From a virus, in IMG/VR virus record IMGVR_UViG_3300021197_001518, positions 1 to 31,468 of that record: a DNA stretch of 31,468 nt. One strand, written 5' to 3'. Positions 4,140 through 14,997 of this stretch are shown here, one piece after another. The notes beneath the pieces were generated by a model, which was given only the letters and a program-made list of their open reading frames with translations, ran no database searches and had not been told where the DNA came from. Both the position numbers and the translations under genes were made by a program. The stretch's first letter is position 1. The number at the start of each line of letters is the position of its first letter.

Positions 4140-6497
4140 ATGGCTAAAAAAACAAGAATTGGGTGGAAACAGTTTGATCTTGAAATCTCTCAGGATGCTG
4201 GTAATAACACCTACGAAACATGGCAGTCAGCAGGACAATCTGCTGAAGCCGGCCTTGCGGCATTCAACATTGGTCTCTTTGACGTAGCAACTCTTGCTCT
4301 CGCGGCATCTGTCGCCGAGTATGACGCTGCTGACAATGATAAAGCGATTGTTAACTACGGTTACTTGAAGCACACATTGGCTCTTGCAGAAGCTGAAACA
4401 GCAGCGGATGTAGCTTCTTTGGACGCTAGAGCGCAAGCAGCAGAAGACGCAGAATCATCTGCAATGAACTCTGCTGACGCTCGCATAGCGATCGAAGAAG
4501 GCATTCGCTCTGTAGCAGACGCTTCTCTTACAACTCGTCTTGGAGCAGAAGAAGTTAGAGCAGGTGCTGCTGAAACTTCTTTGACAGCACGCCTTGGCGT
4601 TGAAGAAGGCGCACGCGCAGCAGCAGTAAGCACTCTTCAAAGCAATCTTGACGACGAAGCAGCAGCCAGAGTATCAGCTGATGACTCTCTGGACGCAAAG
4701 CACACTACAGCTATGGCTGATCACATTGCTGATAACGTTGCGTCTTTCTCTTCTTCCGACTTGCGTATTTCAGCAGAGGAAGCAAGAATGGATGCAGTCC
4801 TTCTTGCGGCAGACGCTGACAAAGACAGTTTTGCAGAAATCGTTGCTCTCATCAACGCAGTTGACCTTGAGAATGATAACGACCTCGCATCAGCTGTCTT
4901 GGCAATCAACTCCGATATCGCAGTTGAAGCTTCAGTAAGATTGGCAGCAGACGGTTCCGTGACAACTCGCATGTCAGCAGAAGAAGGAGTTCGCTCTGTA
5001 GCAGACGCTTCTCTTACAACTCGCATGGCAGCAGAAGAAACAAGAGCAGATATTGCTGAAACTTCTTTGGAAACAAAAATCGATCTTGATATTCTTACCG
5101 AACAAACAGCACGCGCTGCTATGAGAACTTCTCTTGACGCTCGCGTATCAGTAGAAGAATCTACTCGTGTACTCGAAGTTGATTCTCTTGACACAAGAAT
5201 TGCTGCTGATGAAGCAGATTTGGTAGCAAAAGACGCTTCTTTGGCTGCTAGAATTGGCGCAGAAGAAGTTGCTCGCGCAGCAGACGTTGACGCAGAACAA
5301 GCAAGAGCAGAACTAGCAGAAAGTACAATTCAGGCGAACCTTGACGCAGAAGAAGCGGCAAGAATCGCGGAAGACGTTGCACTTCAAGGCAACATTGATG
5401 CAGAAGCAGCCAGAGCATTGGCAGCCGAATCTGTCATCGCTTCGAGCCTTGTTGTTGAATCAGCTGCGAGAGCAGCTCAGGATGCTTTTCTTCAATCCAA
5501 TATTGACGCAGAAGAAGCAGCAAGAGTGGCTGCTGACTCCGCAATCAACTCAGCTTTGGATGTAGAGGAAGCTAGAGCATTGGCAGCCGAATCCACACTA
5601 CAATCTAACATTGATGACGAAGAAGCAGCAAGAATCTCTGGTGACTCTGTGCTTCAATCTGCTATCGATGCAAACGAAGCTGTTAGAGTAGCAAAGATGG
5701 TGTCAACAGACGCTCGTATCTCGGCAGAAGAAGGAAGAGTAGATTCTATTCTTGACTTATCGACCGCAGACAAAGACAGTTTCAAAGAAATTGTTGACTT
5801 CATTAACTCAGTAGATCTTACAAACGACAACGCACTTGCTTCTAGCATGACAAGCGTTGGCCTTAGAGTTTCAACTTTGGAAGATTCTCACGTCGCAGCG
5901 GGTGTATCTTTGGCACAGTTAGTTGCCGACGAAGAAGCAGCAAGATTAGCTGGTGACTCTGTGTTGCAATCTAACCTTGACAGCGAATCAGCAGCACGCA
6001 CTGCTCAGGACAGCTCGCTGAGAGTTATTATCGACGCTGAAGAGGCAAGAGCACTTCTCGCCGAAGGTGCATTAGACACCAAGATCGATGATGAAGTTGC
6101 TGCCCGCGTATCTGCTATGACTTCTATGGAATCAAAGCACGACGCAGAGCTGCTCGTTGAAGAGAACGCAAGAATCGCCAAGGACGCGGATCTTAAAACT
6201 GACATGGCTGCAATTCACGACAAGTGGAAAGTCAAGCACCATGCACCATTGGCAGCCTCAGCAGTAGCCGGTGCTCACATAGTCGATATTGTCGCAGACG
6301 GCTTCGGTCCAATGTCGCAGTTAGGTTATGTAACCATCAACGGTCTAGTGGCAATGCCATTAGCCAGCGGTGTTGGTGACTATACCATGTCACTTGATGC
6401 GAATGGAGACATTATTGAAATCGTATTCCAAGTCGGACTTGATATGGGTGACCAAATCAGCTACTTCGGCCAAGAAGCGTACACAATGATTTCATAA
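4140..6497 (+). CDS. Alanine-rich repeat fibre / virion structural protein
   Basis: This 785-residue protein has a strong ribosome site (AAGGAG). After a unique N-terminal region of about 80 residues, it consists of a long array of 15-17-residue units of the type 'EEAARVAADSALQSNID', with regularly spaced Ala, Ser/Leu and acidic positions. This pattern fits an elongated trimeric coiled-coil or beta-solenoid shaft. A different block, containing 'DKDSF' and then 'INxVDLxND', occurs twice (about 4808-4915 and 5763-5850) and divides the shaft into segments. The last 80 residues form a non-repetitive cap ('VTINGLVAMP', then a 'GDQISYFGQ' ending) like those on many marine phage structural proteins. 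I infer a tail or side fibre working with the upstream adhesin. The fibre assignment is inferred from architecture; no enzymatic domain is visible. Confidence 0.7.
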   Translation: MAKKTRIGWKQFDLEISQDAGNNTYETWQSAGQSAEAGLAAFNIGLFDVATLALAASVAEYDAADNDKAIVNYGYLKHTLALAEAETAADVASLDARAQAAEDAESSAMNSADARIAIEEGIRSVADASLTTRLGAEEVRAGAAETSLTARLGVEEGARAAAVSTLQSNLDDEAAARVSADDSLDAKHTTAMADHIADNVASFSSSDLRISAEEARMDAVLLAADADKDSFAEIVALINAVDLENDNDLASAVLAINSDIAVEASVRLAADGSVTTRMSAEEGVRSVADASLTTRMAAEETRADIAETSLETKIDLDILTEQTARAAMRTSLDARVSVEESTRVLEVDSLDTRIAADEADLVAKDASLAARIGAEEVARAADVDAEQARAELAESTIQANLDAEEAARIAEDVALQGNIDAEAARALAAESVIASSLVVESAARAAQDAFLQSNIDAEEAARVAADSAINSALDVEEARALAAESTLQSNIDDEEAARISGDSVLQSAIDANEAVRVAKMVSTDARISAEEGRVDSILDLSTADKDSFKEIVDFINSVDLTNDNALASSMTSVGLRVSTLEDSHVAAGVSLAQLVADEEAARLAGDSVLQSNLDSESAARTAQDSSLRVIIDAEEARALLAEGALDTKIDDEVAARVSAMTSMESKHDAELLVEENARIAKDADLKTDMAAIHDKWKVKHHAPLAASAVAGAHIVDIVADGFGPMSQLGYVTINGLVAMPLASGVGDYTMSLDANGDIIEIVFQVGLDMGDQISYFGQEAYTMIS
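4504..5023 (+). repeat. Exact 34-nt direct repeat within the fibre shaft
   Basis: The bases at 4504-4537 are repeated identically at 4990-5023, 486 nt apart. Both encode the same stretch 'RSVADASLTTR' and are preceded by near-identical codons. Silent positions are also identical, which points to recent duplication or gene conversion rather than selection on the protein alone. A related, slightly diverged pair lies near 5411 and 5574. Confidence 0.8.
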
Positions 6498-7048: not shown

Positions 7049-9910
7049 ATGTCAGTTAAAAAATTTAAATTCGTATCTCCCGGTGTATTCACCAAAGAGA
7101 TTGACAACTCTCAGCTCCCAGCAGCTGATCGACCAGCAGGGCCAGTTATTATTGGCCGCCTACCACAAGGCCCAGCAATGGAGCCAGTTAAGGTAAATTC
7201 CTTTTCGGAATACGTAGAGGTTTTTGGTAACCCGGTCCCCGGCAAAGCAACAGGCGATGTTTGGCGACATGGTAACTACCAAGGGCCAACTTATGCAGCA
7301 TATGCGGCACAAGCTTATCTAAGAAACAGCGATGACGCTATTACAGTCGTCAGGCTTGCAGGACAAAAGAATCCTGATGCAGGAGCACCCGGCGCAGCAG
7401 GGTGGGGAACAGAAAACATGTCCACATCTTACGCAACAGCCGGCGGAGCATATGGGCTTTATATATGTAACAGCGGATCCGGAGCACAGGATGGATATCT
7501 TGCGGCTGTTTGGTACTTCCCATCAGGCGGTGCCGTAAGTCTTAGTGGTTCTTTAGCCGGAACAACTGCTGAAACAGGCGGGGTCGGTGGTCTATTTAAA
7601 GCAGCACCAGACGTTGGATCCAGTAAAGGCCCAGATTTTACAGCGATTGTTCACAAGAACGACGGCACGGCACTTTACAAGACAACATTCAATCTTGACC
7701 CAGCTTCTAGAACGTTTGTTAGAAAAGTTTTCAACACGAATCCGCAATCTACAGGGGGTATTATTCCCGCAGATACATTTACTAATGGCGAAAATCTTTA
7801 TTGGCTCGGAGAAACATACGAATCGTTTATCCAGAAGCAATTGGATCTCGCAACTTTGACAGATACAGCATATGCAGTCATTCTTCCATTCGCCACCAAT
7901 ACCAAGTCTGATTATAACTTCGACGCGACCAGTGCCTCAACAGGGTGGTTCTTTTCTCAGGACATCTCAACAGACTCTGCTGCATGGACCGCAAATAAAA
8001 TGCAGAAATTATTTAAGCTTCATGCACTAGAGCCGGGAAAATGGGTTCAAGATAATATCAAGGTTTCTATACAAGATTTGACTTATTCCAGAGACATCAC
8101 CGGTGCAGCTCCTTACGGAAGCTTTACTCTTATTCTTAGAAGAGCTGACGATACAGACAACGTTGTGGAAACTATCGAAAGATTTTCTAACTGCAATCTT
8201 AATCCTTTGTCAGATAATTACATTTCAAAGAAGATTGGAGATAAATACAGAAAATGGAGCGCAACAGAAGGCGTAATGAGAGAATATGGCGAATATGATA
8301 ATGCCTCAAAATATGTAAGAGTGGAAATCGACGATACGGTCAGAAACGGCATTGCAGACCCAACTCTTTTACCATTCGGTGTATTCGGTCCCGACAAAAT
8401 CAAAAATGTGGAAGTACCCGAACTTGCAAGTGGTATCACTCCTGCAACAGTATTGACCAAGGGGTTAACAGCACCCCCCGGAATGACTCCGGGAGTCGGT
8501 ACTGACGGTTCAATGAATACTGGATCAATTTCATCATACACTGCTTTGTTGAAATTCCCAGAAACTCAATTAAGAATCTCTTCATCAGCAGGCGGATTAG
8601 TCGATCAAACTAACGCCTACTTTGGACTGAATGCTTCTTCTTACCTAGAAAATACAGCTGGTGCTTACTCAAGCAATAAAGCAGACGCAGGATACGCTGA
8701 TTATGTGTATCCTCTTGGTAGCATCCTTCCAGCTGACAAAGAGCCATCATGGGCGTTCTCTCTCGACAACATCAGTGGGTCATCCGACGAACAGTTCGTT
8801 TCTTATCAGCCAGATTCTAGGACATCTGGGGAATCAATTTCTGCCGTCAGCGGTTGGAGAGAAGTTGTTGATAACGGATGGACAAGATTCACTTCTCCAT
8901 TGTTTGGTGGATTCGACGGCTTAAATGTAGTCGAAATCGAACCATTCAGAAACGAGGGAATGGATGGAAAGAACATGCAAAACAGCTATGCTCTCAATAC
9001 TTTGAGACAGGCAGTAGATTTAGTCGCTGATCCAGAAATCGCAGATTATAACTTGATGACTGTCCCCGGAATTACTGATAGAAATATCACTGATCAAATG
9101 CTTCAAGTGTGTGCCGATAGAGGTGACGCATTAGCAGTAATCGACATTCAAGATGTCTATACACCTTTTACAGAAAACTCTACTTCTTACAGTAATGTAA
9201 CGGAGCGAGCAGGAACTGTTTCCGGCGCGATTACAAAATTAGAAGACAGACAGGTCAACAACTCATATGGTTGTACTTACTATCCTTGGGTTCAGATCCA
9301 AGATACTGTAACTTCCAACAGTAGACTATGGGTTCCACCTTCAGTAGTTGCTTTGGGAACTTTTGCTTCCTCGGCTGCTCAAACAGAAGTGTGGTTTGCA
9401 CCTGCCGGCTTTAACAGAGGCGGTTTATCACAGGGTTCCGCAGGAATCCCGGTATTGAATGTAAGTCAAAGATTGACTTCCAAGGAAAGAGACTCTCTTT
9501 ACGATGCCAATATTAACCCAATCGCCTCTTTCCCGAATGAAGGAATTGTAATCTTCGGACAGAAGACCCTTCAATTAACTCCATCGGCCCTCGATAGAAT
9601 TAATGTTCGCAGAATGATGATCTTCGTTAAGAAGCAAGTATCAATCTTCGCAAACTCTATCCTCTTCGACCAAAACGTTGAAGTTACTTGGAATCGTTTC
9701 AAGAGTTTGACCAATCCATTCCTAGCAAGTGTTCAAACGCGCTTAGGTTTGAGTGATTACAAACTTATCTTGGACAAGACCACAACAACCCCAGACTTGG
9801 TTGATAGAAATATCGTATATGCCAAGATTTTCTTGAAGCCTGCAAAGGCCATCGAGTACATCGCGCTTGACTTTGTTATCACAAATCAAGGTGCGGCTTT
9901 TGAAGACTAA
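7049..9910 (+). CDS. Contractile tail sheath protein (gp18-like)
   Basis: This is the outer tube that contracts during infection. The N-terminus reads 'SPGVFTKEIDNSQ' followed by 'AGPVIIGRLPQGPAM', the usual sheath handshake and first-strand region. The C-terminal part from about residue 770, including 'NEGIVIFGQKTL' at about 828 and 'RINVRRMMIFVKKQ', is the conserved sheath C-terminal domain that carries the interlocking strands. At 953 residues it is far longer than T4 gp18 (659), so the extra length must be surface domains inserted between about residues 120 and 640. A good ribosome site (AGGAG at 7034-7038) precedes the ATG. The tail tube gene follows 47 nt later, the standard sheath-tube order. 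Identification is firm; the role of the insertions is unknown. Confidence 0.95.
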   Translation: MSVKKFKFVSPGVFTKEIDNSQLPAADRPAGPVIIGRLPQGPAMEPVKVNSFSEYVEVFGNPVPGKATGDVWRHGNYQGPTYAAYAAQAYLRNSDDAITVVRLAGQKNPDAGAPGAAGWGTENMSTSYATAGGAYGLYICNSGSGAQDGYLAAVWYFPSGGAVSLSGSLAGTTAETGGVGGLFKAAPDVGSSKGPDFTAIVHKNDGTALYKTTFNLDPASRTFVRKVFNTNPQSTGGIIPADTFTNGENLYWLGETYESFIQKQLDLATLTDTAYAVILPFATNTKSDYNFDATSASTGWFFSQDISTDSAAWTANKMQKLFKLHALEPGKWVQDNIKVSIQDLTYSRDITGAAPYGSFTLILRRADDTDNVVETIERFSNCNLNPLSDNYISKKIGDKYRKWSATEGVMREYGEYDNASKYVRVEIDDTVRNGIADPTLLPFGVFGPDKIKNVEVPELASGITPATVLTKGLTAPPGMTPGVGTDGSMNTGSISSYTALLKFPETQLRISSSAGGLVDQTNAYFGLNASSYLENTAGAYSSNKADAGYADYVYPLGSILPADKEPSWAFSLDNISGSSDEQFVSYQPDSRTSGESISAVSGWREVVDNGWTRFTSPLFGGFDGLNVVEIEPFRNEGMDGKNMQNSYALNTLRQAVDLVADPEIADYNLMTVPGITDRNITDQMLQVCADRGDALAVIDIQDVYTPFTENSTSYSNVTERAGTVSGAITKLEDRQVNNSYGCTYYPWVQIQDTVTSNSRLWVPPSVVALGTFASSAAQTEVWFAPAGFNRGGLSQGSAGIPVLNVSQRLTSKERDSLYDANINPIASFPNEGIVIFGQKTLQLTPSALDRINVRRMMIFVKKQVSIFANSILFDQNVEVTWNRFKSLTNPFLASVQTRLGLSDYKLILDKTTTTPDLVDRNIVYAKIFLKPAKAIEYIALDFVITNQGAAFED

Positions 9911-9957: not shown

Positions 9958-10500
9958 ATGGCAAATGATTTTTGGACAAGCGCGAATGTCGATCCAAAGA
10001 GGAAATATAGATTCTTAGTCGAATTAGCAGGAGTAGGTGGAGTCGGTTCAGTCTGGTTCGCCAAGTCGGTAGATAAACCGGAAATTACAATCGGAACGGG
10101 AGAAGTAGACTTTATGCAACACAAGTTTTACTATCCGGGACGTGTACAGTGGAACGAGATTGGGCTTACCCTAGTGGATCCAGTTTCTCCAGACGCAACA
10201 GGAATTTTACTTGACATTCTTTCTGCTTCGGGTTATAATGGTCCTATGAATGCTAAAGAGACTCTTCAATCTATTTCCAAAGGCGCAGAAACTAATGTTT
10301 TGGGTAACGTTGTTATTAAGCAAGTCGCAGCAGACGGAACCATTCAAGAAGAATGGGTACTTAACAACGCGATTATCATAAAAGTTGGTTGGGGTGACTT
10401 GGATTACAGTGCCGAAGAACTATCAGAAATTAGTATTTCATTCAGATATGACTGGGCCTCTTGTACAACAGGTACAGAGCAAAGACAATTTCTTAAATAA
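9958..10500 (+). CDS. Tail tube protein (gp19-like)
   Basis: The 180-residue product matches the size of T4 gp19 (163) and follows the sheath gene directly. The N-terminus 'MANDFWTSANVDPKRKYRF' leads into alternating strands, with 'GEVDFMQHKFYYPGRVQW' typical of the tube fold. The C-terminus 'EISISFRYDWAS' is the closing strand common to this family. It forms the inner conduit through which DNA leaves the virion. ATG is preceded by TAGGAG. Its N-terminus is clearly related to that of the protein at 11614, so the phage has two tube-fold proteins. A perfect sigma-70 promoter match lies inside this gene. Confidence 0.93.
   Translation: MANDFWTSANVDPKRKYRFLVELAGVGGVGSVWFAKSVDKPEITIGTGEVDFMQHKFYYPGRVQWNEIGLTLVDPVSPDATGILLDILSASGYNGPMNAKETLQSISKGAETNVLGNVVIKQVAADGTIQEEWVLNNAIIIKVGWGDLDYSAEELSEISISFRYDWASCTTGTEQRQFLK
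10211..10239 (+). promoter_or_regulatory. Perfect sigma-70 promoter match inside the tail tube gene
   Basis: TTGACA (10211-10216), a 17-nt spacer and TATAAT (10234-10239) match the consensus 12 of 12. It would read into the tail chaperone and tape-measure genes. However, these bases encode what looks like a core segment of the tube protein ('LLDILSASGYNG'), and no TGn is present. It may therefore be a coding coincidence. Confidence 0.4.
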
Positions 10501-10519: not shown

Positions 10520-11389
10520 TTGGCTAGAAATAGCAAACGAAGTAAGCTAGGCACAGGTCTAGAAGACTCAACCCCAGCACCGGCAGATCCTGTCGCTGCT
10601 GTTTTTGAAGCAGGTGGGCTTGATTTTGCCACACCAACAGAATTTGTGGATTTGCCCTCTCGGGGGCAATTTTATCCCGAAAATCATCCGCTACATGGAA
10701 AAGATACAGTAGAGATCAAGTACATGACGGCGAAAGAAGAAGACATTCTTTCTTCCAAGACTCTTATCAAGCAAGGCGTAGCTATTGAGCGACTCTTGAG
10801 AAGCGTCATTATTGATAAAAGAATAAATCCAGATACTCTAATAAGTGGAGACAGAAATGCGATTCTTGTTGCCACCCGAGTTACCGGATACGGCTCTGAA
10901 TATGATACCAAAATTACTTGCCCATCGTGTATGACTTCCGTTGATCATTCATTTGATCTGTCGGAGGTAGACATAAAGACAGTGGACGAGGAAGATAATG
11001 ACAGTTCATATGAATATACAGCAGATGGTCTCATTTCTACTGTAACTCCACTTACGAAAATACAAGTAGAGATGAAATTGATGACTGGAAAAGATGAAAA
11101 CTACCTCTCGCGCTTGGTAGATTCTAAAAGAAAAAAGAAAGTACCCGAAACAACTCTTACGGATACTCTTAAAATCCTAGTTGTCTCCTTAAACGGGGAA
11201 ACATCACCAGATCTCATCAATCAGTTTGTGAAAGTTGTGCCTGCCAGAGACTCAAGACATTTGAGATCTGTGTACGAAAAGGCATCTCCTAACGTGGATA
11301 TGACGCAGAATTTCGAATGTAGTAACTGCGGCTACGTAACGGACTTGGAGGTTCCGTTCACCACTGACTTTTTTTGGCCTAAGCAGTGA
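10520..11389 (+). CDS. T4_baseplate-family protein (gp26/gp51-like), probable tail-assembly chaperone, short form
   Basis: The gene starts at TTG with GAGGTG at 10510-10515. The 289-residue protein contains the segment 'VDLPSRGQFYPENHPLHGK' and then 'VEIKYMTAKEEDIL', characteristic of the T4 gp26/gp51 baseplate family (PF12322 type). It has two CxxC pairs (C134/C137 and C267/C270) that could hold one zinc ion. Its place between tail tube and tape measure is that of tail-assembly chaperones in other phages. A codon frame with no start overlaps its end in the +1/-2 frame. The run of seven T at 11369-11375 would allow a slip giving a product of 347-348 residues. I infer a short form and an extended form that chaperone the tape measure. 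Family is fairly certain, frameshift is inferred. Confidence 0.82.
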   Translation: MARNSKRSKLGTGLEDSTPAPADPVAAVFEAGGLDFATPTEFVDLPSRGQFYPENHPLHGKDTVEIKYMTAKEEDILSSKTLIKQGVAIERLLRSVIIDKRINPDTLISGDRNAILVATRVTGYGSEYDTKITCPSCMTSVDHSFDLSEVDIKTVDEEDNDSSYEYTADGLISTVTPLTKIQVEMKLMTGKDENYLSRLVDSKRKKKVPETTLTDTLKILVVSLNGETSPDLINQFVKVVPARDSRHLRSVYEKASPNVDMTQNFECSNCGYVTDLEVPFTTDFFWPKQ

Positions 11390-11564
11390 TTATATCCAAA
11401 AGGTTTATGAAGAGTTCTTCCTTTTAAAATATCATGGCGGCTGGAGTTTCATAGAAGCCTACAATTTACCGGTAGTAATTCGTAGGTGGTTCTTAGAGAG
11501 GTTAGCCGACCAGATCAAGAAAGAAAGCGATCAGATGAAAAAATCTTCAAAAAGCAAGAGATAA
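11376..11564 (+). CDS. Frameshift-dependent C-terminal extension of the tail-assembly chaperone
   Basis: From 11340 to the TAA at 11562 the third frame is open, and from GGC at 11376 it encodes 62 residues that look like a real protein ('DYIQKVYEEFFLLKYHGGW', then 'YNLPVVIRRWFLERLADQ' and a basic tail). This aromatic and 'LPxxxRRWFLERL' pattern resembles the second half of tail-assembly chaperones. It has no ATG, GTG or TTG before the protein-like part; the only in-frame ATG is at 11535. It overlaps the end of the preceding gene, whose TGA is at 11387. A +1 slip of Phe-tRNA on TTT (11372-11374) to TTT (11373-11375), before the slow codon TGG, would join them. A -2 slip gives the same frame with one more Phe. 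A CTG at 11364 with GGAGG upstream is the alternative start. Confidence 0.72.
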   Translation, partial: GLSSDYIQKVYEEFFLLKYHGGWSFIEAYNLPVVIRRWFLERLADQIKKESDQMKKSSKSKR

Positions 11565-11613: not shown

Positions 11614-12345
11614 ATGGCAAATAACTTCTGGACAACGGCGAACTACCAACCTATGCAGCAGTTTAGGTATGATGTTCAAGCTATCTTGTTTAAGGCTGAT
11701 TTTGGAGCAATAAACGACGAAGGTCGTGTTCCAATTAGACAGCCACAATCCACAGAAGCGGTCATAAGCAAAGAACTGATTAAGGCGGTAAACATGCCTG
11801 ATGTCACTTTTGGTTATGAAAATGATGCAGCTAACATTGGCTCCAATGGTCCCAGCATAGAGTCTCAAGATCCCCAGATGACAGAACTGGAATTGCAGTT
11901 ATATATGACACCACAACTAGCTCATGATATACAGGATATTTTTAGAACCTATTATCTTCAAGATGTCAAAGAGCCAATCGATGGATTTTTTGAAGGAAGG
12001 CCATCAAAGATATTGAACAAAGATAGGATAAGTCTAATACCTTCTCCTCTTCTTATCAGGAATTCTGCAATTATTATTAATATTTATGATCCATCTCCGA
12101 GAGCTTCGTTTGGTGCACCTGCTACCCCCATCAAATCAGTCAGGTACTATGGTATCTATCCGGTATCTTATAACCTCGGAGGGTTAGACTATTCTAGCTC
12201 TGAAGTGGTAATGGGAAGTATTAAGTTTTACTATTATGGAGTGGATATAAAAAATTCAGAAGATAAAGACAATCCGTCACAACAAGAAAAAGAAATTTTA
12301 AGCAGTATCGTCGCGAGTGGCAAAGCCTGCATGGGGAATTTTTAA
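11614..12345 (+). CDS. Second tail-tube-fold protein, possible tube initiator (gp48/gp54 role)
   Basis: This 243-residue protein begins 'MANNFWTTANYQPMQQFRYDV', closely matching the start of the tail tube protein at 9958 ('MANDFWTSANVDPKRKYRF'). It is longer and has the same strand-rich pattern, ending 'MGSIKFYYYGVDI' in place of the tube's closing strand, followed by a charged tail. In T4 the baseplate proteins gp48 and gp54 share the tube fold and start tube polymerisation. I infer a similar adaptor role from homology to the tube and location beside the tape measure. AAGGAG precedes the ATG. It could instead be a tail terminator or a minor tube subunit. Confidence 0.7.
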   Translation: MANNFWTTANYQPMQQFRYDVQAILFKADFGAINDEGRVPIRQPQSTEAVISKELIKAVNMPDVTFGYENDAANIGSNGPSIESQDPQMTELELQLYMTPQLAHDIQDIFRTYYLQDVKEPIDGFFEGRPSKILNKDRISLIPSPLLIRNSAIIINIYDPSPRASFGAPATPIKSVRYYGIYPVSYNLGGLDYSSSEVVMGSIKFYYYGVDIKNSEDKDNPSQQEKEILSSIVASGKACMGNF

Positions 12346-12348
12346 ATA

Positions 12349-12675
12349 ATGGAACATATTGAAATAGATTTAGAAGAAATGAAAAAGAACGAAGACATGC
12401 TCAACGAAAGCTTTTTGAGAATGTATGGTACGGTTATCGAACTCATCATAAAGCAGATGTTTGGCATGCCATTCTTTGGAACTTCGAGTAGCATTAAAGG
12501 TAAGCCAGCAGATGTTAAAGCTTTTGCCCGCGCTGTTGGAAACGAAAAGAAATATATCGAGGTTGCCAAGCAGCATGGATTGGATGATCCTAGAACTTAC
12601 AAGCAGAAGAGCAGGCTAAATAAGGCAGTGGCGGCGTTCGAATTAAAAACGGGTATTAAGTGGCCGTTTAAATAA
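12349..12675 (+). CDS. Small conserved-looking tail-region protein, unknown
   Basis: I cannot assign a function to this 108-residue protein. It starts 3 nt after the previous stop with a weak ribosome site (GGGGAA), so translation is probably coupled. The first half is acidic and amphipathic ('IDLEEMKKNEDMLNESFLR'). The second half is basic and helical and ends with 'FELKTGIKWPFK'. Its position directly before the tape measure is where phages place tail-assembly factors, so a minor tail or chaperone role is plausible but unproven. Confidence 0.7.
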   Translation: MEHIEIDLEEMKKNEDMLNESFLRMYGTVIELIIKQMFGMPFFGTSSSIKGKPADVKAFARAVGNEKKYIEVAKQHGLDDPRTYKQKSRLNKAVAAFELKTGIKWPFK

Positions 12676-12690
12676 AGGAAACAATAGTGT

Positions 12691-14997
12691 ATGTCTGACG
12701 ATCCAAAAAAAATAAAAGAGCTAGGTGAAGAAACCCAAAAAGCCAAAGAAGCTTGGGAGGCATTCGCTAAAACGCTGAATCAAGCGGAAAAGGGATTGGA
12801 TGCGTTTAACGGCAGTGCCGAGACTACTTCAAAAGCGATGCGGGAAGCTGCTCGTGCAGGTGAGGGTCTGGGAGATACATTCGCGGGACTGCTTGGCATG
12901 GGCTCCGGCCTCAGTAAAACAATGGCTAATCTGGCCGAGGCAACCAACAATACAGAGAATCTTTTTAAGGGATTTACTAAGTCTATTGGGGCAAACTTTA
13001 ATGCCATGTCTGTAGGTGTTAGTATCGTAGAAAAAATGAAAGAAGCCACCCTTGGCCTAGTGTATGCCACTGACGCTGCTTTGGTATCATTTAATAAGCA
13101 AACCGGTGCAGCATCTCTTTATGGCTCAAAGATAGTAGAGATAGAAAAAAGAAATAGTGCTTTTGGCGTATCTATAGATGAAGTCGCAGATTCTCAAGCA
13201 GCCTTAGTTTCGGGTATAAAAAACTTTAACACCTTTTCTGATGATGCCCAGCTATCAATTTTGGAAACAACTTCTGTCCTAAATGAGCTTGGCGTAGAGT
13301 CGAGTGTAACCACTCAAAGCATAGGGTTTATGGTTAATTCTTTGGGCATGACAACTGACGCAGCAGAAAAAACAAGCAGAGAGATGTTTGTTTTGGCGCA
13401 AACTATGGGTCTGCCTCCACAAGAGATGGCATCCTCATTCAATGCAGCCGCTCCTCAATTAGCAGCTTTCGGAAACCAAGCTAGCGCAGTTTTTCAAAAA
13501 ATGGCTGTCAATGCCAAAGCCGCGAACATGGAAGTAGAAGATATGCTTAGAATTACAGAGCAGTTCGACAAATTCGATTCAGCAGCATCATCGGTTGGCA
13601 AGCTAAACGCCATTCTTGGTGGTCCCTATCTGAGCACTGTAAAGATGGTTACCACAACGGATCCTACAGAAAGACTTAGGATGATGTCTGATGCTGCAAG
13701 ACAAGCCGGGAAGTCTTTCGATACCATGAGTTATTATGAAAGAAAGATGACGGCTTCAGCAATGGGCCTCAAAGATGTGAGCGAGCTAGCCCTTGTCATG
13801 GGTAACCAGTTTAACTTAGCGGCCCCCAAAATACAAAAAACACAGGCTCAAATAATCGAGCTTCAAAAACAAACACAAGCATTCAATTCAATCGGGGAAG
13901 AATTTAATCAACTCATGCGTCAGTTTGCTGTTGAAATAGCGGTTCCAGTTATAAGTGTGCTTAAAACAATCATTAACCAATTAACTTATTTGGCCCAAAA
14001 TCCTCTGGCTTGGACAACAGCCGGCATAGGAGTTTTAACAGGGGCCATAATAACATTCATGGTTGCAACAGGTGGCGTGGGTGCAGTAGTGACCGCAGTC
14101 ATTACTGGAATTACTGGATTGATAATAATGATGAAAGGCATGTACGACATGATTATGAAATCCCAGCCGGCCTTAGACATATTCAGTTTGGTATGGGAAA
14201 AGATTACTCCTCAAGTAGAAAGACTGAAAGATATGTTTGGAAAATTACAATCTGGTACAGGAGATATGCAAAAATCCTTCGATGCGTTTGTCGTAGACTA
14301 CGCACCATATATTGGAGCATTTTTTGTAGCTTTTGCCGAATCTGTATTGAGCATAGCTGAAAACGTGATGATACTCGCACAAGTATATAAAGATTCTGGA
14401 TTTTTCACTGGTCTAGCCTATCTTGCGGGTGGAATCGTGGCCGCTTTCGGATTGATCGCTCTCGGCATAGCCAAGATAATACAGGGGCTTGTATACTTAA
14501 ACACGGTGCTCAATCCTCTCTATCACTTCTTTTATGTAGGAAACAGCCCTTCTTTTATTGAAGTCTTAGGAATGGTTGGTAATGCCTTTACTGCCATTGG
14601 AGACGCAATTAAGCATCCCATTCAGATGCTCGCCAAGATGCTATCAGGACTCAAAGACGTAGCAGGGGTTTTAGCCAGTAAAGCATTGGGGTTCTTAGGT
14701 GGTGCCATATCATACGTGTTCGGTGGCGCGTCTCCGCAGACAGAAGTCAGTAACGGAGGATTTAACAGACAAGAAGACATGGATTCAAAGAGTGTCTCCA
14801 TAGGTGAAGAGGTAGCTAGAGCCGTTAAGGAGGCATTACAGGGCGTTCAACTAAATAACAAAGTAGAGCTGGAAGTGACTTCGGCAAATGGCTTACCAAC
14901 ATTGTTTGACTTTATGCAGAAAAATATGGATGATGTTGCCTCTAATAGATCTCCAAACTTTGCCCTAAACGCAAGCAGGGCGGGAATAGGAAAATAA
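12691..14997 (+). CDS. Tape measure protein
   Basis: This 768-residue protein sets tail length and is ejected with DNA. It shows the usual layout: a polar helical N-terminal half rich in Ala, Glu and Lys ('LGEETQKAKEAWEAFAKTL'), then three hydrophobic segments at about residues 440-475, 535-562 and 570-605, rich in Gly, Ala and Ile, able to insert into a membrane. A final acidic/polar segment follows. It sits after the tail chaperone and tube genes and before LysM and hub genes, the standard order. The ribosome site is AAAGGAAA. No peptidase or lysozyme motif is obvious. Tail length is probably short to medium, since tape measure length scales with tail length. Confidence 0.85.
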   Translation: MSDDPKKIKELGEETQKAKEAWEAFAKTLNQAEKGLDAFNGSAETTSKAMREAARAGEGLGDTFAGLLGMGSGLSKTMANLAEATNNTENLFKGFTKSIGANFNAMSVGVSIVEKMKEATLGLVYATDAALVSFNKQTGAASLYGSKIVEIEKRNSAFGVSIDEVADSQAALVSGIKNFNTFSDDAQLSILETTSVLNELGVESSVTTQSIGFMVNSLGMTTDAAEKTSREMFVLAQTMGLPPQEMASSFNAAAPQLAAFGNQASAVFQKMAVNAKAANMEVEDMLRITEQFDKFDSAASSVGKLNAILGGPYLSTVKMVTTTDPTERLRMMSDAARQAGKSFDTMSYYERKMTASAMGLKDVSELALVMGNQFNLAAPKIQKTQAQIIELQKQTQAFNSIGEEFNQLMRQFAVEIAVPVISVLKTIINQLTYLAQNPLAWTTAGIGVLTGAIITFMVATGGVGAVVTAVITGITGLIIMMKGMYDMIMKSQPALDIFSLVWEKITPQVERLKDMFGKLQSGTGDMQKSFDAFVVDYAPYIGAFFVAFAESVLSIAENVMILAQVYKDSGFFTGLAYLAGGIVAAFGLIALGIAKIIQGLVYLNTVLNPLYHFFYVGNSPSFIEVLGMVGNAFTAIGDAIKHPIQMLAKMLSGLKDVAGVLASKALGFLGGAISYVFGGASPQTEVSNGGFNRQEDMDSKSVSIGEEVARAVKEALQGVQLNNKVELEVTSANGLPTLFDFMQKNMDDVASNRSPNFALNASRAGIGK

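Follow-up and report, generated by a model that had tools for sequence, protein, structure and literature searches.

A start-less +1 frame behind a gp26-like gene suggests a frameshifting tail-assembly chaperone in relatives of phage T4

How is a conserved protein-coding frame translated when it overlaps the end of the preceding gene and has no start codon of its own? The question is raised by a 31,468-base record of a marine-type virus of bacteria (IMG/VR IMGVR_UViG_3300021197_001518; ‘the window’ hereafter means this whole stretch). Its tail genes follow the order sheath (7049–9910, plus strand; phrog_23, E 5e-64; Phage_sheath_1C), tube (9958–10500, plus strand; phrog_4542, E 4e-22), gp26-like gene (10520–11389, plus strand), start-less +1 frame (11340–11564, plus strand), second tail-tube-like gene (11614–12345, plus strand; phrog_4542, E 3e-5), small unknown gene (12349–12675) and tape-measure-like gene (12691–14997, plus strand). 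The last was named from its position and size and from two weak matches (PhageMin_Tail, E 0.01; phrog_167, E 0.005). The gp26-like gene starts with TTG behind GAGGTGAACA and encodes, as the short form, a 289-amino-acid protein ending in TTDFFWPKQ. It belongs to the T4_baseplate family (PF12322, E 6e-16, 59 bits against a curated cut-off of 24.5; phrog_150 ‘baseplate hub’, E 9e-20), and its AlphaFold2 model (pLDDT 90) matched baseplate hub proteins in BFVD.

An earlier note on this DNA had proposed a programmed shift, +1 or −2, from the gp26-like gene into the overlapping frame (ORF2). The +1 frame is open, stop to stop, for 74 codons and, as the note described, has no ATG, GTG or TTG before its conserved part; the first such codon lies 148 nt past the TGA stop of the zero-frame product (11387–11389, plus strand). 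The run of seven Ts that it placed at 11369–11375 is present and reads TTT TTT TGG in frame 0 and TTT TTT GGC in frame +1. Across 22 independent pairs of relatives, ORF2 differences fell at codon positions 1, 2 and 3 of the +1 frame in the ratio 224/136/497, and 12 of the 15 differences between the window and one relative (L001) were at the third position, a bias which indicates that ORF2 evolves as coding sequence, in line with the note’s view of it as protein-like.

The note had also suggested looking for the same overlap and T run in relatives. From 193 loci in viral contigs and annotated phages we obtained 156 distinct junctions and assigned the frame of ORF2 at each with an ORF2 profile: the start-less +1 overlap recurred in 147, ORF2 was in the −1 frame in 9, and the two were fused in frame in 0. 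With the window protein as query, bacterial MAG contigs gave 8 loci, 7 of them readable through the junction and all 7 in +1 with the same site; the gp26 of LIS04 as query gave no matches in these contigs. The +1 arrangement is also present in the isolates immuto, Mel-JY01, SP-15 (a Bacillus phage), LIS04 and GXN1, the Flavobacterium phage immuto having the site TTT CTT TGG CCT. These relatives are not fully independent, and clustering at 50% identity reduced them to 37 clusters. A sequencing or assembly indel within what is really one fused gene might be suspected where, as here, the frame changes in a homopolymer of a metagenome contig; recurrence in independently sequenced contigs, MAG loci and isolates, including at sites without long runs, excludes such an error, to which we give practically no credence.

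Nor is ORF2 a wholly unknown protein: it is a gp51-like domain. A profile of the 147 ORF2s matched the short gp51 proteins of KVP40 (E 4e-10), P-SSM2 (1e-8) and S-PM2 (6e-8; all at Z=5), and cyanophage gp51, about 20% of the length of other gp51 proteins, is known to resemble their C-terminal region (Sullivan et al., PMC3037559), as the KVP40 database record likewise states for its short gp51. Both T4 gp26 and T4 gp51 match PF12322 (E 9e-64 and 4e-52), and within phrog_150 the former covers positions 14–235 and the latter 13–280; the two are paralogues. A profile of the shifted fusion aligned with the Straboviridae gp51 family through both the gp26 domain and ORF2 (E 5e-6, probability 86). ORF2 alone matched the T4 gp51 C-terminus only moderately (score 17.8, equalled by 1 of 150 column shuffles), and profiles built from only 41 ORF2s and 7 gp51s gave too weak a match when compared directly, the signal coming with larger sequence sets. 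In the modelled gp51, three C-terminal helices (207–221, 226–230 and 234–247) follow the gp26-like domain; this model matched no PDB structure, the HK97 tail-assembly chaperone included, and a PDB sequence search returned nothing relevant. An assignment of ORF2 to DUF6760 (PF20546) was rejected at 18 bits against a cut-off of 27 (E 0.003), with 10 of 41 members matching at E ≤ 0.01. The virus therefore likely makes a short gp26 and, by frameshifting, a gp26::gp51 fusion.

Where is the second frame entered? Upstream initiation is impossible in 68 of the 147 +1 junctions, where a stop closes the +1 frame 5 or 11 nt before the T run. In 67 of the 147, the stretch from the last +1 stop to the ORF2 core contains no ATG, GTG or TTG; elsewhere upstream starts are scattered, and in none of the 147 did we find a start codon at a conserved position between the upstream stop and ORF2. 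With the stop at −5 or −11 and no conserved start, entry must fall within TTY YTT TGG CCN. The conserved residues of the +1 frame start immediately at the T run; the position of the zero-frame stop, by contrast, varies from 1 to 6 codons past CCT. ORF2 might still start independently, at a non-AUG codon (the CTG at 11364, for example) or through ribosomes that re-initiate once past the gp26 stop, and cyanophages, KVP40 and several relatives do have a separate ATG for gp51; with no start-like codon conserved, the upstream stops where they are and +1 conservation anchored to the T run rather than to the moving stop, we regard this as very unlikely. As a general explanation, the CTG that the note had named as a possible start is excluded by its lack of conservation and by the frequent presence of intervening stops. 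Some relatives do have a start codon for ORF2, which the note would have taken as refuting a shift; in these, ORF2 lies in the −1 frame, for the most part preceded by a −1 slippery site, or the site is lost altogether.

The shift site itself (TTT_TTT_TGG, 11369–11377, plus strand) was delimited by codon conservation over the 147 +1 junctions, which keep it as TTY-YTT-TGG-CCN or close variants. The first codon is TTT in 132 and TTC in 15; the second, the slip codon, is TTT in 138, CTT in 8, CTA in 1 and TTC in 0; the third is TGG in 132, TAC in 10 and something else in five; and the fourth is CCT in 136, CCA in 7, CCC in 2, GCC in 1 and ACC in 1. TTC is thus missing at the slip-position Phe (0/138), compared with 21% of Phe codons elsewhere in the gp26-like genes (P ~ 7e-15; binomial P 4e-4 over the 37 clusters), and no other Phe column with at least 25 sequences showed the same absence. 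The outlying sites are TTT_CTA (LR756508), TTT_TTT_CAC (SP-15), TTT_TTT_AGT (LIS04) and TTC_TTT_CGT (GXN1), and every +1 member, outliers included, has at least one Phe or Leu codon whose +1 slip lands on UUU or UUC. As far as codon usage can tell, the variants fit a putative +1 slip of the P-site tRNA (YUU_U to UUU).

The conservation of CCT (136/147) is explained by dual coding, as it serves both the zero frame, for Pro, and the +1 frame, for Leu (members with CCA carry Gln in +1). It could also mark a slip two codons later, at CCU, with FFWP-SSDY at the junction (...FFWPSSDYIQK), and in Listeria phage PSA +1 shifting does take place at Pro codons (PMC5009743); such a slip from CCU to CUN would, however, occur without re-pairing, and would give no reason for TTC to be missing at the Phe codon, while 9 relatives with CCA or CCC and two with GCC or ACC all keep ORF2 in +1. 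We consider a slip at CCU unlikely, though not fully excluded.

We directly observe the overlap and its conservation, the coding character of the second frame, the constraint on the site and the homology of ORF2 to short gp51, and this comparative evidence supports the note’s central proposal, a programmed shift into the +1 frame within a T4_baseplate-family gene. With considerable confidence, we read the pair as the tail-assembly chaperone of a T4-related contractile phage whose long form arises by a +1 slip at TTT_TTT_TGG; the slippage, its direction and efficiency, and the chaperone function are all inferred, and the frameshift product has not been shown. Normal translation would yield the short gp26-like protein ending FFWPKQ. 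At the site, a fraction of ribosomes would slip one base forward, the P-site tRNA-Phe moving from UUU 11372–11374 to the overlapping UUU 11373–11375 while the zero-frame UGG waits in the A site, and reading would resume at GGC (11376), then CUA, to give a long gp26::gp51 form (...TTDFF-GLSSDYIQK..., predicted junction peptide ...TTDFFGLSSDYIQK). The long form would add the helical gp51 domain, encoded without a start of its own at 11376–11564 (plus strand; GLSSDYIQKVYEEFF...KSKR; assigned from the short-gp51 profile match and the third-position bias). By analogy with lambda gpG/gpGT, many short forms would coat the tape measure and few long forms would recruit tail-tube subunits.

The same fusion could be made by −2 slippage on the T run, the other direction that the note had allowed, with FFFGL in the product (predicted junction peptide ...TTDFFFGLSSDYIQK, 147.07 Da apart from the +1 peptide, with three rather than two Phe). 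The seven Ts permit full re-pairing two bases back, −2 slippage has been reported for phage Mu, and a GGAGGT upstream of the site in the window’s subfamily is placed more like a backward-shift stimulator. In the 15 relatives with TTC TTT, however, a −2 slip would bring tRNA-Phe to UCU, and the sites of GXN1 (TTC TTT CGT) and LR756508 (TTT CTA) are compatible with +1 only; on the strength of the TTC TTT relatives we favour +1, and −2 slippage seems to us improbable. Variation at the site bears equally on transcriptional slippage, which on the seven-base homopolymer that most members have would create a mixed mRNA population: TTTCTTTGG sites (8 distinct junctions) and TTCTTTTGG-type sites (15 with TTC TTT) keep ORF2 in +1 with T runs of only 3–4, so that this mechanism can be given hardly any weight.

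What would drive an efficient +1 slip is unclear. In tests with a stop codon, few P-site codons slip +1 more readily than CUU and UUU (PMC10885494). At this site there is no A-site stop or rare codon as stimulus (UGG in 132/147), and no conserved 3′ RNA structure was found among the 37 cluster representatives, where the mean z of about −0.5 was no different from that of control windows; downstream structure was therefore rejected as stimulator. The GGAGGT at 11347–11352 (plus strand), 16 nt upstream of the T run, is a possible Shine–Dalgarno-like stimulator of unproven role. Its conservation is real (GAG in 17/17 cluster representatives with Glu, versus 28% GAG in the gene body) but confined to the window’s subfamily, and its spacing is odd for +1, so it too was rejected. 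No Shine–Dalgarno-like 5-mers adjoin the site; most of them lie at about −22, in one subfamily. A preference for GAG is also seen at other Glu columns shortly before the site.

Is the pair, then, a counterpart of lambda G/GT? We consider this most likely, a reading that rests on its position between tail tube and tape measure. The positional criterion is met between the tube (9958–10500) and the tape-measure-like gene (12691–14997). The note’s ‘upstream of a tape measure’ holds as to order; directly between lie two genes (11614–12345 and 12349–12675), the first of which, a second tail-tube-like gene, sits between the pair and the tape measure. An overlapping start-less second frame with a conserved slippery site is likewise met (147/156 junctions). 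A canonical −1 heptamer is absent in the window, where the frame is +1, and present in cyanophage relatives; such a heptamer is usual for tail-assembly chaperones, not defining, given that chaperones shifting by −1, −2 or +1 have all been described (PMC5009743). Among solved structures, the best match of the gp26-like model was the HK97 chaperone (2ob9_B), a weak one (E 0.36, probability 0.69) that serves, for a model, as a pointer and not as proof.

Lambda gpG/gpGT is the model for a short form and a frameshifted long form in tail assembly (PMC5009743). Like lambda G/GT, HK97 gp13 and P2 E/E′, the pair described here has overlapping frames between tube and tape measure, with a long form that would be made by low-level frameshifting; unlike them, the window’s lineage would shift +1 at YUU_U, and the proteins belong to the T4 gp26/gp51 family. 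In T4, gp26 and gp51 are listed as hub assembly chaperones, of which gp51 is essential, does not occur in the particle and has no known function (Leiman et al., PMC3004832). The pair shares PF12322 with these proteins, and the fused profile aligns along gp51 with its C-terminal helices included, whereas T4 has two divergent paralogous genes and no shift. In the haloviruses HF1/HF2 and HSTV-2, whose chaperone genes also sit between tail tube and tape measure, a +1 shift at TTT-CGC has been predicted (PMC7230728), a likeness in both direction and place; these viruses differ in having archaeal hosts, and the HF2 chaperone proteins gave no match to PF12322. As in prfB (CUU_UGA) and influenza PA-X, whose +1 core is UUU_CGU (PMC3498833), a P-site CUU or UUU would slip to UUU or UUC, and the TTC_TTT_CGT of GXN1 matches the PA-X core. 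Unlike prfB, the window has UGG instead of an A-site stop and no Shine–Dalgarno sequence 3 nt upstream.

Cyanophages and KVP40 resemble the window in having one gp26 followed by a gp51 of about 55 amino acids that is homologous to ORF2, with Phe-Phe in the same place; their gp51 differs in lying in the −1 frame behind U_UUU_UUC and in having a nearby ATG too. In cyanophage-like viruses, gp26 ends with T_TTT_TTC at that Phe-Phe in 58 of 58 distinct junctions, compared with TTC at only 15% of Phe codons in the gp26 body, and the short gp51 frame is open through the site. Loci of the cyanophage type with T_TTT_TTC or T_TTT_TTT are L253–L332, L248, L249, L250, L089, L333 and L334. T_TTT_TTC was also found in KVP40, Atu_ph07 and the LR756511-type loci L086, L192 and L194, T_TTT_TTT in HTVC008M and pf16, and T_TTT_TTG in Rhizobium RHph_Y68. 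Judged on these sites, the cyanophage-type junction, in marine phages that are very abundant, is a candidate for a canonical −1 programmed frameshift. Many −1-site phages also carry a gp51 ATG just past the gp26 stop, and in phages that have both, frameshift and ATG start may both operate; L181, L186 and Vibrio D503 have the ATG route only and no slippery site. Three further loci (L042, L052 and L094), which form a small clade, read TTC TTC TGG CCY TCC CGG TAR with ORF2 in −1, in L042 without a start codon, and may use a −1 slip of T_TTC to TTT. With TTC as slip codon, where no +1 slip is possible, the frame of ORF2 has changed too. In L042 and L052, TCCCG occurs as a direct repeat on either side of the stop.

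Two PF12322 genes are present in T4, RB43 and CP220 among the records searched, and a single one in nine other matching records, where it is followed in all but PAU (which was examined only briefly) by a gp51-like ORF2. In Campylobacter phage CP220 (L247, FN667788.1, 2349–2651 region), the second PF12322 gene lies near the terminase and has a gp51-like tail. We lean, with less assurance than for the window itself, towards a wider reading in which gp26 and gp51 are short and long forms of one tail-assembly chaperone across T4-related phages, the Phe-Phe codons recoding +1 (YUU_U) in the window’s lineage or −1 (U_UUU_UUY) in cyanophages, KVP40 and others, and T4, RB43 and CP220 having replaced frameshifting by two paralogous genes.

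Frameshifting chaperones are known; the +1 site and the link to T4 were not found in the open-access papers searched, among which there was no report of a gp26/gp51 frameshift (subscription papers and preprints lay outside the search). The G–T frameshift has been reviewed as conserved ‘except T4’ (PMC5009743), and the reading proposed here, if true, would explain that exception, testably, by the two paralogous genes. If gp26 and gp51 are two chaperone forms, the result would be two further signals: a +1 signal that has neither a stop codon nor known structure and persists across large divergence, and a −1 signal in cyanophages, which are very abundant.

The same reading would also put right annotations in which gp51 is missing or cut short. 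The gene annotated behind gp26 in immuto and SP-15 is a truncated ORF of 36–39 amino acids, as expected if the true entry is hidden. Truncated gp51-like annotations, with entry hidden by the proposed frameshift, occur in L082 (4833–4943), L085 (4836–4955) and L333 (1153–1290); in L335 (1235–1339) the truncation probably reflects a missed overlapping ATG. Elsewhere in the window, 4140–6497 encodes a 785-amino-acid Ala/Glu-rich protein of repeated AEEGVRSVADASLTTRM-like motifs, perhaps a fibre or coiled-coil structural protein.
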